From positions 1 to 40,414 of the IMG/VR virus record IMGVR_UViG_3300050821_006666: a stretch of 40,414 nucleotides of DNA. One strand, 5' to 3'. A program made the translations under genes and the position numbers. The notes beneath the pieces were generated by a model. That model had not been told where the DNA came from. It worked only from the letters and a program-made list of their open reading frames with translations, and searched no databases. Shown here one piece after another: positions 7,514 through 12,579 of the stretch. Every line of letters begins with the position of its first letter. Position 1 is the stretch's first letter. The DNA comes from a virus.

Positions 7514-8158
7514 TTAAGATTTTCTTGTTCTATTGTTAGAGTTCTCTTTTGGAGTCACCCATCTACAATTTCCTGGCTCATAATTTCCATCATTATCAAT
7601 CCTATCCAATTGCAATCCTGGTGGCCTTTCGCCCATATCTTCTAAGAAGTTATTAAAGTCATTCCATCGATCACAAACTTTAATTCCTCTTCCACCATAA
7701 TTCATGTAATTATCATTGGTTTCTCTTGTGCACCTTGCTCTCATACAGCGCCATGTATCATATGTTGGTGTATTTTCATAGCCATGTTTTACTACATTAC
7801 ATAAATGACATGATTGAGGTTTTCTAATTTTTAATCTTGAAGCAGTTATTATTTTTTGTTCACCACATTCACATTCACAAAGTAGTCTTCTTTGTCCATT
7901 TTTATGATTTTCTGCAACTGATATTACTTTTAACTTTCCAAATTGTTTTCCTATGTAGGATTCTGTATCAATAAACCTTTCTTTCTCACTGCATTCACGA
8001 CATTGAGAGGATCTTCCATTCCTTAATCCATCAGCTCTTACTGTTTTTATAGTTCCACACTCACATTGACATTCAAAGTGCTTAAAACGAGCAGTTCTTG
8101 CCTGAGGTACTTTTACCTCTCTTAAAACCAACCATTTTCCCATCTTGTTTCCAATCAT
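7514..8158 (-). CDS. HNH-type homing endonuclease with zinc-ribbon repeats
   Basis: A 214-residue minus-strand protein. The N-terminal half has two repeated zinc-ribbon modules (GKWLVL...CQCECG...CREC, then GKLKVISV...CECECG...CHLC) that probably bind DNA. The C-terminal third, about residues 140-214, has the signature of phage HNH proteins: YGGRGIKVCDRWNDF, LQLDRIDNDGNYEPGNCRWV and a final NRT. The start at 8158 has AGGA eight bases upstream. Being opposite to all neighbours and next to the intron-containing capsid gene, it is probably a free-standing selfish endonuclease that cuts near the capsid locus. A related zinc-ribbon gene without the HNH part lies at 32890-33330. Confidence 0.85.
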   Translation of the reverse strand: MIGNKMGKWLVLREVKVPQARTARFKHFECQCECGTIKTVRADGLRNGRSSQCRECSEKERFIDTESYIGKQFGKLKVISVAENHKNGQRRLLCECECGEQKIITASRLKIRKPQSCHLCNVVKHGYENTPTYDTWRCMRARCTRETNDNYMNYGGRGIKVCDRWNDFNNFLEDMGERPPGLQLDRIDNDGNYEPGNCRWVTPKENSNNRTRKS

Positions 8159-8197: not shown

Positions 8198-8281
8198 GTA
8201 CCGAGAGTCGTTACCTCGAATTCCAAATTGGACCGTATGAGACTCGTCCACTCGATTAATGACCGTACAAAGTTCTCGTCA
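8198..8281 (+). promoter_or_regulatory. Series of small hairpins upstream of the capsid gene
   Basis: Three short imperfect hairpins follow one another: GTAcCGA/TCGtTAC (8198-8214), GGAC...GTCC (8230-8249) and TGAC...GTCA (8260-8281). The last two share a GACCGT....CTCGTC framework. A CCAAATTGG palindrome (8223-8231) lies between them. This 157-bp gap (8159-8315) holds no gene. Confidence 0.4.
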
Positions 8282-8285
8282 AACT

Positions 8286-8291
8286 TATAAT
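8286..8291 (+). promoter_or_regulatory. Candidate -10 box for the capsid gene
   Basis: A perfect TATAAT lies 25 bases upstream of the capsid ATG, but no good -35 box is at 16-18 bp; the best is ATGACC (8259-8264), 21 bp away. If used, transcription would start near 8298, just ahead of the AAGGA ribosome-binding site (8305-8309). Confidence 0.35.
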
Positions 8292-8315
8292 GTTCAACAT
8301 TTATAAGGATAGCAT

Positions 8316-10837
8316 ATGGCAATAACTACTACAAGTACCCTAGATTAGTGGGGTAGTAAAATCTTCTCTGATTGACTTGAAACTCTGACCGCTAACGACG
8401 AAGACAACAAGGCGCAAGTTTAAATACAGCGTGAACGTAGCAAGCGAGAAGACATCGAAAGATGATGCGGTGCTCTGAACATTATGGAAACATAGTGAGG
8501 GATAAGTAGAGAAAATCCCCGCCTGAATTCAGGTAGTAACAAAACGGCCAGCTCCAGTACAACAAAGTTTCAGTTATAAATTATTGTCGGTGCCAGTTCC
8601 CTATATGATCCACAAGATACCTGCAGTACACAAAGAAATGCCCCGTAATGGTGGTACAACTTTGCGTATGAGAAGGTATAATCCGTTGGCAACCGCGATG
8701 GTTCCGTTGGGTAAATTTATTGCCCAACTGAAATTTCCTCTAATTGACTTGGAAACCCAAGCGTAATAGCGGGCAACAAGGCGCAAGCGTAATTGCAGCG
8801 TGAACGACTAAGTGAGAAGACACCGTAAGGTGATGCGATAGTCTGAACTCTGAGCGATAAGACAGAGAGGAGAACCCGAAGAGGCATATCCCGCCTAGAT
8901 ATATACTAGGTCATAAAAGTAACAGATTGAATTCTGGTATAACACCACCAGCCCAAAACCTGACCGCGGTCGACATTGATGCTAAAATTAGTTTCTATGG
9001 GACATATATTCAATTAAATGAACAGGTAACTCTGCAGAATCAGGATCCCGTTCTCAATGAAGCTGCTGCTCGCTTGGGGGTCAGTTTAAGACAAACAGAG
9101 GATCAATTGACAAGAGATATGCTTGCGTCAACTGCTTCTGCTATAAATTGCGTAGGTGGTGTAAACGGTAGAATTGTTGCCGTTTTAAAATCTTTGGTAA
9201 TTGACTTGGAACTCGAAGTGGCAATTAGCTAACCGACAACAAGGGGCAAGCAAGAAATGTGCAGCCTGACAGACTAAACCCAGAGACCCAGAAATGGGAT
9301 GCGATAGTCGAGCCTCATGCGATAAGTATGAGAGGTAGCAGAAATGACTACCCGCTTAAGAATTAATACCTTTAAGGTTGAGCAAATGAACTTTATTAAC
9401 AATCTCCTCTCTCTGTTTAATGGAATCAGCATAGGATTTGCGGAATTCTTCCGTATGTCTTGCTCCTCCATTCTTAAGAATGGTTTTGTTAAATTTCATG
9501 AGCTCTTCACAAACTGGTTTTTTGTGTATGAGAAATGGATGGATTTTTTCCAATATATTAGCAAGCGAAGCACTTGTAAGTCTCCACGTCAATTGATCTC
9601 TTTGGTTAATATCTTTACTTCTTCTATCAATAAAATGAACTTGTCCTCCAAATCGTTGGAGCAACCATTTAAACACTGGTGCTTTAGTGTTATTACATTG
9701 AAGTTGAATCTTATAAAGGAAATTTGGTTTATCTTTAGATCTATATCTTTGTATTCCAAGGCAGCATTCTGCATCAATAAATCCAGCGAGATAAGCAAAG
9801 TCTTCCTCGGTTGGTTCAATTGTATTTCTTTCAGATTCAAATTCAATCTTATTACTCTTGCATACAAGATTGGTAGAATTTTTGAGAATATACATTTTAT
9901 CAATATTAATATTCTTATCTTCAGTAGTTGTAGAATTTATGAAGTCTATAAATGTTTTAGCTTCAGAAACTTTTTCAACCAGATAAGACATTATTTGTTT
10001 GCTAAAATTAATAGACTTTGTCTTTTTAAGATGGAAGTAATAGATATATTTATGATTGGGAATATGTGTGTTGTTTTTCTGCACACTTCCACCAAAAATA
10101 TCTTTAAACCAATAAAGAACTTCTGGATTAACAGAAGAAATTACAATTGCTGCAGGATATTTAGAAGTGATCTTATTTTTGTAAGGTTCTTTTCTAATGC
10201 TAAAACATCCATCGCCATCTATATAACCAGCCGCATAAGCCAGAGTGGTATTTTTAATAATGTTATTCATAGATATATAATAGCATAGATTAGATCTTAA
10301 GTCAACAAGTAATAGATTTAGGACAACCCTACGGAAATTACTGATTCCGATGTGAACGTGATTACCCAAACACTTGCTGGTAACAACGCTTATATGATCA
10401 CTGATGTAATCGGTGGTGAAGATAAGTTTGGTACAGCTCCTGTTCGTGGAGGTTACTTCGCAATGGGTAATACAGATCTTATCAGCAATCTAAACAATGT
10501 TGATGGATTCACCCAAGTTGCACAATATCCATCGAATATGAAAGCATTGCGTTCAGAATGGGGCGCAGTGGGCAACCTTCGTTTCCTTCTTTCATCTATC
10601 GGTAGCGTATCGCCTAATGCATCTGCAAATGGTTCTAATGTATACAACGTATTCGTTGCTGGCATGGAAGCCTATGCATGTATTGAGCAAGATGGTTATA
10701 GCGCAAGCTTTATCTATCGTCCACCAATATACGATGGGCCATTAGCGCTTAATGCTTCTGTTGGTTATAAATTTGCTGAAGTACCTCGAATCTTGAATGA
10801 TTTGTGGGTATTGAACATGCGTTGCACAATAGCTTAA
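8316..10837 (+). CDS. Major capsid protein, N4-gp56-like, four exons split by three group I introns
   Basis: Exons 8316-8341, 8547-8712, 8930-9169 and 10322-10837 (26, 166, 240 and 516 nt) join to 948 nt in one frame, encoding 315 residues. The junctions restore continuous N4-gp56-type coat sequence: MAITTTSTL|PAPVQQSFSY, MVPLG|NSGITPPAQ and CVGGVNG|DNPTEITDSD. Other recognisable blocks are TTLRMRRYNPLATAMVPLG, YGTYIQLNEQVTLQNQDPVL and EDKFGTAPVRGGYFAMGN. The gene begins after AAGGA (8305-8309). It lies after the scaffold and before other head genes, as expected. Without splicing, translation of exon 1 stops after ten codons at an in-frame TAG, so splicing is essential for coat synthesis. Exon limits were chosen from P1 pairings, reading frame and the family sequence; shifts of a few bases are possible at 3' sites. 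Confidence 0.9.
8342..8546 (+). ncRNA. Group I intron 1 in the capsid gene (205 nt)
   Basis: The exon end TACCCT (8336-8341) pairs with guide GGGGTA (8350-8355), giving a P1 helix closed by a U.G pair at the 5' splice site. A core similar to introns 2 and 3 follows: GATTGACTTGAAACTC, GACAACAAGGCGCAAG, and a P8-like CATC-GAAA-GATG hairpin. Near the 3' end the block AGTAACA is followed after five bases by the terminal G (8546), the same arrangement as in intron 2. The intron interrupts codon 9 after its second base. It carries no ORF. Its first in-frame codons include TAG, blocking unspliced translation. Confidence 0.88.
8713..8929 (+). ncRNA. Group I intron 2 in the capsid gene (217 nt)
   Basis: Exon end GTTGGGT (8706-8712) pairs with GCCCAAC (8722-8728), a seven-pair P1 ending in U.G. 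ATT (8719-8721) just before the guide pairs with the first bases of exon 3 (AAT), a P10 interaction. P7 is GACTA (8806-8810) with TAGTC (8839-8843); P8 is CACC-GTAA-GGTG; a P9-like hairpin is CTCTG/CAGAG. It ends AGTAACAGATTG at 8929. It lies exactly between codons 64 and 65, after a GGT glycine codon. No ORF inside. Confidence 0.9.
9356..10270 (-). CDS. LAGLIDADG homing endonuclease inside intron 3, antisense
   Basis: A 304-residue single-chain enzyme with two LAGLIDADG motifs: AAGYIDGDG at residues 13-21 (catalytic D20) and LAGFIDAEC at 161-169 (catalytic E168). Each is followed by a beta-rich DNA-binding half, so it should act as a monomer on an asymmetric site. Such enzymes cut intron-less copies of the host gene and spread the intron. 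The gene runs opposite to the capsid transcript, so it cannot be translated from the pre-mRNA. A longer ORF starts in exon 4 (10369), but the start at 10270 is favoured: the first motif follows immediately, and a strong promoter lies just upstream. Its stop is close to the intron core. Confidence 0.92.
   Translation of the reverse strand: MNNIIKNTTLAYAAGYIDGDGCFSIRKEPYKNKITSKYPAAIVISSVNPEVLYWFKDIFGGSVQKNNTHIPNHKYIYYFHLKKTKSINFSKQIMSYLVEKVSEAKTFIDFINSTTTEDKNINIDKMYILKNSTNLVCKSNKIEFESERNTIEPTEEDFAYLAGFIDAECCLGIQRYRSKDKPNFLYKIQLQCNNTKAPVFKWLLQRFGGQVHFIDRRSKDINQRDQLTWRLTSASLANILEKIHPFLIHKKPVCEELMKFNKTILKNGGARHTEEFRKSYADSIKQREEIVNKVHLLNLKGINS
10277..10305 (-). promoter_or_regulatory. Promoter of the intron-encoded endonuclease
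   Basis: On the minus strand, TTGACT (10305-10300) and TATTAT (10282-10277) are spaced by exactly 17 bp, a near-consensus sigma70 promoter. Transcription would begin close to 10270, at or next to the proposed ATG, so the mRNA may be leaderless; no ribosome-binding site is visible. The promoter lies within the last 50 bp of the intron. Confidence 0.65.
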
Positions 10838-10847
10838 GGAGAAGTAC

Positions 10848-12116
10848 ATGGACGGAACAATATTAGGACAAGGTACTTTTACTGCAGCATTTAGTGCAGC
10901 AAACCCTAACACAGGCGTTGCAAGCATTGCAGCAGCAAATAATCAAGTAATTCAAATACCTTCAAATGCAGACTGGATGAGAGTATACAACTATACAAAA
11001 GCCGGGGCCAATGGTTCTAATGCTGCGTATGTTGGTGCGACAAGTGGTTCATTTGTTGGTGTAGAGTATATATGGCAACGTGGTATGGCTGCTGGTACAG
11101 GTATTGTAAAATACAAAACCAATAGCTCATCTGCAATGAATGAAGATACTATGGTTGCTGGTGGATTTACCCTATGGGATCCATCCGGCCAAGCTGCTGG
11201 TGCATTGCCATTGGTTGGAAATACTGTAGCTATTCAACGTGTTCAAAGTTCTACTACGCCAACAATAACTACAGCATCAACTACCGGATTAGTTGCATCT
11301 ACTTCAACATCTCTTGGCTCTATTGTTATGCTAACAGGAGTTTCTGCTGTTCAAGACATATGTGGTATACCATTTGTTATTAGCACAGTAACTGCAAATA
11401 CTAGTTTCTTATTAGGTATATCTGGTGTTAATGCTCTTGCAACAGCACCCGGCGTTGGATCTGGAACTTCTCCATATTCAGCAACAATAGGTTATTATAA
11501 AGTTGTTAACTATCAAGCATTATATTATCCACGTAAACGCTATGTAGTGCAGATAACTCAAGCAACAAATGCTCAGGTATCTACTTCTATTCCCCACGCA
11601 TTAACCGTAGGGCAAGAAGTTAGGTTCCATATTCCAACAGCATCTTCAATGATACAATTGAATGCAACATCACAGAATAACTATCAATCGGCGATAGTTA
11701 CCGGTGTTGTTGATCTATTCAATTTCACTATCAATATAGATACTACTGGATTTACAGCATTTACATGGCCTACATCATCTCCTAACCAAATGCCATCTGA
11801 TTTCCCAACAGTTGTACCATTTGGTGAAGACACTGCTACTGCTCTAAGTACACCGGGCTCATCTACAAATATTCAAGTACCTAATGATGGATTTGGCAAC
11901 CCAGTCTTCTCAGCAAATACTGGAATACTTGCAGATGCAACCGTTAACACTGGTTATCTTGGCATGTTACTTGGACAAGGTGGTCTATTGACTGCTGCAA
12001 GTACTACACCGATTACTGGTCCTAGTGGTACGGTGAACTTCAACAGTTCAAACGTTATAACATCGTATGACACTGTTTACTGGGTAGCTGGTAAATCATC
12101 ATTTGGTGGTCTGTAA
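10848..12116 (+). CDS. Virion structural protein (422 aa)
   Basis: A 422-residue Ser/Thr/Ala/Gly-rich, Lys-poor protein, ten bases after the capsid stop and with a GGAGAA site. It has no signal or membrane segment and looks all-beta. Residues about 250-325 (HALTVGQEVRFHIP, FNFTINIDTTGFTAFTWP, FPTVVPFGE) match a module repeated in the gene at 12586 and, more loosely, in the protein at 14850. This resembles the beta module often labelled FCCH-like in phage proteins. Position directly after the coat gene suggests a head decoration or connector protein. A GC hairpin follows its stop. Confidence 0.75.
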   Translation: MDGTILGQGTFTAAFSAANPNTGVASIAAANNQVIQIPSNADWMRVYNYTKAGANGSNAAYVGATSGSFVGVEYIWQRGMAAGTGIVKYKTNSSSAMNEDTMVAGGFTLWDPSGQAAGALPLVGNTVAIQRVQSSTTPTITTASTTGLVASTSTSLGSIVMLTGVSAVQDICGIPFVISTVTANTSFLLGISGVNALATAPGVGSGTSPYSATIGYYKVVNYQALYYPRKRYVVQITQATNAQVSTSIPHALTVGQEVRFHIPTASSMIQLNATSQNNYQSAIVTGVVDLFNFTINIDTTGFTAFTWPTSSPNQMPSDFPTVVPFGEDTATALSTPGSSTNIQVPNDGFGNPVFSANTGILADATVNTGYLGMLLGQGGLLTAASTTPITGPSGTVNFNSSNVITSYDTVYWVAGKSSFGGL

Positions 12117-12131
12117 TAAATAGTTACTATT

Positions 12132-12148
12132 GGGGGGCTTGTCCCCCC
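12132..12148 (+). terminator. GC hairpin after the coat-adjacent gene
   Basis: GGGGGG (12132-12137) and CCCCCC (12143-12148) enclose a five-base loop, followed by TTTAC. It lies in the gap between 12116 and 12166. It could attenuate transcription or protect the 3' end of the upstream mRNA, lowering expression of later genes relative to the capsid. Confidence 0.55.
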
Positions 12149-12165
12149 TTTACTTGGAGAAATCA

Positions 12166-12579
12166 ATGGCTGAATTGGCAACAAAAAAACAACAAGAACC
12201 AATAGTAAAGAATCTACGTTATATGCGTGATAGAGATCGTGAAAAGGTTAAGGGAATCTTCAGATATCATGAGGTACCTGGTGCTGCATTTGCTTTCTGT
12301 CATAGAATATACAAAGAAGACCCGGTAGAGAAATACAATCTACTTGATGGTGAAATGTATGAACTACCACTTGGTGTAGCACGTCACCTTAATGAGGCAT
12401 GCTGGTATCCAATCCATGATTACATCAAAGATGAAACTGGAGCACCAGTTGCACGTGTAACCAAGAAGGTACACCGTACCTCATTTGCATCATTAGAGTT
12501 CAATCACATTGAGGGATTGTCTACTATTGCAAAGCCAGAATCGGGAATCGTTACAGTGGAAACTGTTAATAGAAAGTAG
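12166..12579 (+). CDS. Hypothetical head-region protein (137 aa)
   Basis: The ATG at 12166 follows TTGGAGA; an in-frame upstream TTG (12130) would overlap the hairpin and is less likely. The product is 137 residues, with a basic N-terminal part (RYMRDRDREKVKGIFRYHEV) and motifs LPLGVARHLNEACWYPIHDY and RVTKKVHRTSFASLEF. Small proteins of this type occur directly after coat genes in several short-tailed phages. I infer a head-completion role from position only; no enzyme motif is present. Confidence 0.72.
   Translation: MAELATKKQQEPIVKNLRYMRDRDREKVKGIFRYHEVPGAAFAFCHRIYKEDPVEKYNLLDGEMYELPLGVARHLNEACWYPIHDYIKDETGAPVARVTKKVHRTSFASLEFNHIEGLSTIAKPESGIVTVETVNRK

Follow-up and report, generated by a model that had tools for sequence, protein, structure and literature searches.

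Landthaler and Shub are said to have found, in 1999, three introns in a single phage gene, orf142 of Twort. One gene of phage ICP1 also contains three introns, as does the locus described here; in ICP1, however, the gene encodes the tape measure and the endonucleases are of the HNH type (PMC10448857). In LittleE (Pope et al. 2013) the interrupted gene is, as here, the major capsid gene; its probable group I intron has a LAGLIDADG-like ORF on the opposite strand, and its splicing was shown by RT-PCR and N-terminal sequencing. LittleE, a siphovirus of Cluster J, has only this single intron, described as most likely group I (PMC3706429). The crAss-like phages provide a tailed-phage coat protein (MCP) gene that is broken, like the one studied here, by several group I introns: the sections of Yutin et al. 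2021 on these phages describe a Zeta-group MCP in five fragments, with domains characteristic of group I introns encoded in three of the four gaps (PMC7886860). The same sections give genomes of 145-192 kb in which many genes carry introns, these being recognised by endonuclease domains (PMC7886860), whereas the present genome comprises 40 kb, introns matching our covariance model R1 (below) are found in its MCP only, two of the three carry no ORF, and a natural sequence exists that lacks exactly the introns. Dense small group I introns also occur in the Jug huge phages, where metatranscriptome reads support the splicing of 37 of 76; the passages of that report concerned with introns describe about 18 per genome over many genes, naming terL, nrdD and DNA polymerase but not the MCP (PMC12363816).

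Group I introns in capsid genes, several introns per gene, and metatranscriptome proof of phage splicing are already known (PMC3706429, PMC7886860, PMC10448857, PMC12363816). A preliminary description of this locus considered three introns in one coat gene exceptional. The arrangement is rare, but it is not unprecedented, because group I introns in capsid genes and, in the sections cited above, the five-piece crAss-like MCP have been published (PMC7886860). The newer part comprises the MCP as a hot spot and the ORFs in loop L6: the open-licence literature yielded no clade in which the MCP is a hot spot where a single intron lineage occupies dozens of sites, and no L6 ORFs fused to a ribozyme core.

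Exons of the coat protein gene

The DNA analysed, here called the window, is the 40,414-nt stretch at positions 1-40,414 of IMGVR_UViG_3300050821_006666; its MCP locus occupies 8316-10837. Three tRNA genes, for Glu (TTC), Ser (GCT) and Ser (TGA), are located at 1597-1910. As had been proposed, the reading frames of the window contain no continuous frame for the coat protein, the first exon is only 26 nt long, and four exons join into a protein of 315 residues; the exon boundaries are those of the junctions in a related contig, L001:

8316..8341, + strand: MCP exon 1, 26 nt, encoding MAITTTST plus 2 nt
8547..8712, + strand: MCP exon 2, part of the joined frame
8930..9169, + strand: MCP exon 3, part of the joined frame
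10322..10837, + strand: MCP exon 4, part of the joined frame

With 5' exon ends taken from the P1 pairing, and with a terminal G and an open frame obligatory, 36 joinings stay open, and a single one (8316-8341 + 8547-8712 + 8930-9169 + 10322-10837) keeps the conserved peptide. The 315-aa product is a major head protein: its residues 2-273 match phrog_1357 of that name (PHROGs, E=8.6e-30), and its score against Pfam Phage_capsid_4 (PF25209), 25.9 bits, falls just short of the cut-off of 27. The nearest annotated phage proteins share only 22-27% identity with it. At least 543 stretches in IMG/VR encode relatives, the best 80 of which, besides L001, are 75-83% identical; at this identity, uninterrupted relatives carry a continuous version of the joined protein. 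The four-exon structure is borne out by the L001 junctions, the phrog_1357 match and these uninterrupted relatives.

Structure of the intervening segments

The three segments between the exons, together with their internal guide sequences (IGS) and cores, are as follows:

8342..8546, + strand: group I intron 1, 205 nt, no ORF, absent from L001, covariance-model match E=7e-36
8350..8355, + strand: intron 1 IGS GGGGUA, pairing with exon end UACCCU (8336-8341), U.G at the splice site
8362..8522, + strand: intron 1 core, P3-P9.1
8713..8929, + strand: group I intron 2, 217 nt, no ORF, absent from L001, covariance-model match E=6e-38
8722..8728, + strand: intron 2 IGS GCCCAAC, pairing with exon end GUUGGGU
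8734..8894, + strand: intron 2 core, P3-P9.1
9170..10321, + strand: group I intron 3, 1152 nt, absent from L001, covariance-model match E=5e-42
9179..9187, + strand: intron 3 IGS GCCGUUUUA, pairing with exon end UAAACGGU
9191..9355, + strand: intron 3 core, P3-P9.1

Each segment has a U.G pair at the 5' splice site in P1, a terminal G (3' ends AACG, ATTG and TTAG) and a group I core, features that the preliminary description had listed and that the sequence and its covariation confirm. In the structures drawn by hand, P2 is missing from all three introns. P3 pairs UCUUCUC/GAGAAGA, UUUCCUC/GAGAAGA and UCUUUGG/CCAGAGA in introns 1, 2 and 3, respectively, P4 is CUUG/CAAG, and P5 is UCU/AGA, CCC/GGG and UCG/CGA in the same order. 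Introns 1 and 2 share P6 (GCGC/GCGU; GGGC/GCCU in intron 3), and introns 2 and 3 share P7 (GACUA/UAGUC; GAGCA with a bulge/UGCUC in intron 1). P8 is CAUC/GAUG, CACC/GGUG and CCCA/UGGG, P9 is present, and the pairings of P3 and P7 cross in each intron.

Inteins and translational bypassing are both known in phage genes, and either could in principle account for interruptions that are not RNA introns; inteins, for example, are reported from crAss-like terminases in the sections of the survey devoted to those phages (PMC7886860). However, translation from the upstream exon meets its first in-frame stop 7, 54 and 63 nt into introns 1, 2 and 3, and the 205- and 217-nt lengths are not multiples of 3, which rules out inteins. 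Stops, lengths and the complete group I core in each segment refute both readings, and we give them practically no credence.

The compensatory changes were counted in 34 cores of the intron lineage over 32 pairs. In these cores, 98.2% of the pair cells are paired, and 21 of the 32 pairs contain a compensatory (double) change, against a shuffle mean of 15.7 (reached by 2 of 500 shuffles). The number of cells changed on both sides is 198, compared to 53 in shuffles, and the covariation score is 0.514 versus 0.149 (reached by 0 of 500); these shuffles ignore relatedness. When the partners are slid by 1-3 columns, 39-44% of the cells are paired and the score is at most 0.11, a comparison in which the true register has an advantage, since the structure was partly derived from the same sequences. 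Compensatory changes occur in all seven pairs of P3 and in three of the five of P7, which covaries even though it is not part of model R1. P4 is paired in 100% of the cells but invariant, and contributes no covariation support; P5 and P6 are paired in 100% of the cells, P8 in 98.5%, and P9 in 89.7 to 100%. In 91 introns P1 has on average 7.1 contiguous pairs, versus 1.8 with the IGS of an intron at another site, a measure that is partly circular, the pairing having already been used to choose splice sites.

The covariance model R1, built from this lineage with the window's three introns included, has exactly three matches in the window's 40 kb (E=5e-42 to 7e-36), each of them within the MCP gene. 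The Rfam group I model, which had been put forward as a check, did not serve as one: RF00028 describes the same architecture (P3-P9, with P3 and P7 crossed) but gives no match in the window even at E<=5. Only relatives match it, their MCP introns weakly (best L156, E=1.4e-4; L094, E=0.005), with even the best of these MCP introns, at 32.8 bits, remaining below the gathering score of 50. Because of P1, the P3/P7 pseudoknot, P4-P9 and the covariation, the three interruptions are group I introns of one lineage.

We are highly confident that the MCP gene holds three independent introns of this P2-less lineage, each of which excises itself; we infer autocatalysis, and likewise every mobility step discussed below, from the sequence. 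In the proposed reaction the IGS and the last exon bases would form P1, with cleavage after the U opposite G; a guanosine held in P7 would attack, and the exon would be joined after the terminal G. Three such reactions on the late transcript would restore the frame of 315 codons. Because of the in-frame stops, ribosomes on unspliced RNA would terminate, and coat protein would be made from spliced mRNA only. We claim no special selection for these stops, since the true frame is closed no more often than either of the others: in 66 introns, the three frames are closed before the 3' strand of P4 in 61, 62 and 66 cases.

A counterpart without the introns

Contig L001 (IMGVR_UViG_3300022724_000323, 2362 nt) consists of window positions 8244-8341, 8547-8712, 8930-9169 and 10322-12179 at 100% identity, with no mismatch over 2362 nt, and its junctions coincide with the ones that P1, terminal G and frame had predicted. 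The absence of a continuous coat protein frame from the window would also be expected if the gene had decayed into a pseudogene or been misassembled, its insertions staying in place for good. The joined frame, however, is intact in L001 at 100% identity, and the same intron lineage is present in the MCP genes of many independent contigs, with the ribozyme structure kept by compensatory changes. L001 and the covariation refute a pseudogene or artefact, to which we assign a negligible probability. The group I self-splicing interpretation of the preliminary description is supported by the core structure, the covariation and L001.

L001, L004 and L011 are the three shortest among the contigs listed (2.3-2.4 kb); they begin 72-140 nt upstream of the MCP start and stop around the end of gene 2. 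L004:1-30 and L011:1-30, from different samples, have nearly one start motif, GCGAATCTAAAATG, about 140 nt upstream of the MCP, which suggests what is expected of a transcript start. Gene 2 is followed in the window by a hairpin whose position fits a transcript of MCP and gene 2:

12132..12148, + strand: hairpin after the next gene, close to the 3' end of L001 (window 12179)

Because the extents of the three contigs are transcript-like, L001 is most likely a spliced transcript; we infer its RNA origin from the extent of the contig and its perfect identity. An alternative explanation is that L001 is DNA, an allele without introns from the same phage population. If this were the case, the introns would still be group I, and L001 would reflect a polymorphism through homing or loss and not splicing. 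The clade has many MCP genes without introns (35 of the 72 that are near-complete); however, the identity of L001 and the window extends through 72 nt upstream and 1.3 kb downstream, and a DNA allele would require three exact losses (or gains) with the flanks unchanged. Furthermore, among the loci examined, L001 and the window are the only intron-plus/intron-minus pair with such near-identical flanks. In view of this and of the transcript-like extents we consider a DNA allele improbable, and retain the interpretation of L001 as a spliced transcript.

Probable mobility and distribution of the intron lineage

The preliminary description recognised the group I introns but overlooked a gene within the third:

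9356..10270, - strand: LAGLIDADG homing endonuclease gene, ~304 aa, antisense to the MCP, within intron 3

This gene sits between the core of intron 3 and its 3' splice site, in what appears to be a P9.2 stem's loop. The encoded protein has two motifs, GYIDGDG and GFIDAEC, and matches Pfam LAGLIDADG_1 (PF00961) in two stretches (E=3.2e-13, 50.9 bits, cut-off 23.1). Just before the gene lies a promoter-like site at 10277-10305 on the - strand (TTGACT, 17 nt, TATTAT, with TG); the count of promoter-like sites in that region is not above chance. An antisense LAGLIDADG gene at nt 432 of the MCP (aa 144) is found in at least eight other loci (L092, L102, L120, L133, L161, L176, L177 and L180, the site in L180 being taken from the exon ends), and L178 has an intron of 240 nt at site 432 without the gene. 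Intron 3 clusters with the site-432 introns (99% SH-aLRT). Site-specific homing fits this shared antisense arrangement and grouping, and intron 3 probably belongs to a lineage specific for the site at aa 144 that was moved by homing together with its antisense LAGLIDADG gene.

The closest relative of intron 1 (86%) is an intron of L178 at another site of the MCP, after aa 27, and intron 2 has no relative at its own site in the MCP sample. The intron tree is short, with poorly supported inner branches, and most of its deep branches are weak. Closely related introns at different sites suggest ectopic moves; introns 1 and 2, which carry no endonuclease, were probably acquired through ectopic transfer or with help from another endonuclease. 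An origin of all three introns by duplication within the gene is unsupported: introns 1, 2 and 3 fall into separate parts of the tree. A free-standing HNH endonuclease gene (7514-8158, - strand) is located just upstream of the MCP on the opposite strand, and a relative of it (43% identity) lies upstream of the MCP in L173. The gene at 7514-8158 could be a collaborative homing partner of the introns without an endonuclease.

Scanning with the core pattern found 98 stretches, in most of which the core interrupts a relative of the MCP. In a sample chosen by the last exon, 37 of the 72 loci with near-complete MCP genes are interrupted, 28 by one insertion, seven by two, one by three and one by four; these are not independent events, several loci being near duplicates, and interruptions close to contig ends may be missed. 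All 37 interrupted loci have a covariance-model match. The pattern is thus clade-wide, a feature that the preliminary description, made from one sequence, could not reveal. The sample was ranked by an approximate C-terminal query (NSLNN in place of ISNLNN), the matches to which begin at query residue 1-3, so that the effect on the sample is small. Splice-site calling resulted in 91 unique introns at 39 MCP sites, 17 of them at nt 312 and 17 at nt 432; some of the 39 sites were placed by protein joins with low scores, and their positions may be a few nucleotides out. Nine whole records with matches were scanned: in eight virus records all matches lie in the MCP region, and in the ninth, the L268 genome, they lie together on one contig. 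In L268:4480-7740 the MCP is divided into six exons by five introns, several with L6 ORFs and one with extra inserted sequence in the P8 loop. This 39.8 kb contig, probably a phage, was binned as Parachlamydia; host assignment via GTDB genomes was rejected, five contigs having been binned with unrelated taxa (Saccharibacteria, Thermotoga, Parachlamydia and others).

Judging gene names from the translated flanks, the lineage is found outside the MCP as well, in tape measure, portal, ribonucleotide reductase and other capsid genes. In L107, L131, L162, L168 and L174 it sits in tape-measure-like genes belonging to other phages or prophages, and in L131 a second group I intron lies alongside (RF00028, E=1.8e-23).

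In relatives, 44 cores have at least 60 nt in L6, and in 40 of these an ATG follows 0-4 nt after GGGGCAAG. The frame is open throughout L6 in 38 of the 40, versus 1.8% for shuffled letters and none for the other two frames, and in 37 of the 40 it continues in frame into the ribozyme core, with tails such as QPERLSEKTSKEDAIV. The carriers are found among L083-L180 and L268 (for example L110, L268, L117 and L128); the window's three introns have no L6 ORF. DUF551 was matched by two of ten ORFs tested, and others have zinc motifs of the CPFCG type. The AAGGGG of P4/P6 may serve as the ribosome-binding site, and reading would proceed in frame through P7, P3 and P8, making a single stretch of RNA both catalytic core and coding sequence. 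We propose, tentatively and as somewhat less than an even chance, that one lineage reached at least 39 sites of the MCP by way of the abundant coat mRNA, with some of its introns becoming carriers of L6 genes; for reverse splicing or ectopic homing, no other target would be as abundant as coat mRNA.

No phage protein is made in larger amounts than the coat protein; all three splicing reactions must therefore be both efficient and accurate. The MCP is a marker gene in surveys, and in about half of this clade automatic annotation is likely to miss or break it. If translated, the L6 ORFs that continue into the core would make RNA catalysis and coding overlap in an unusual manner. The clade's approximately 90 introns, all from one lineage and spread over 39 sites in a single gene, occur with and without an endonuclease gene and form a natural series that makes a long-standing question testable: how group I introns reach new sites.
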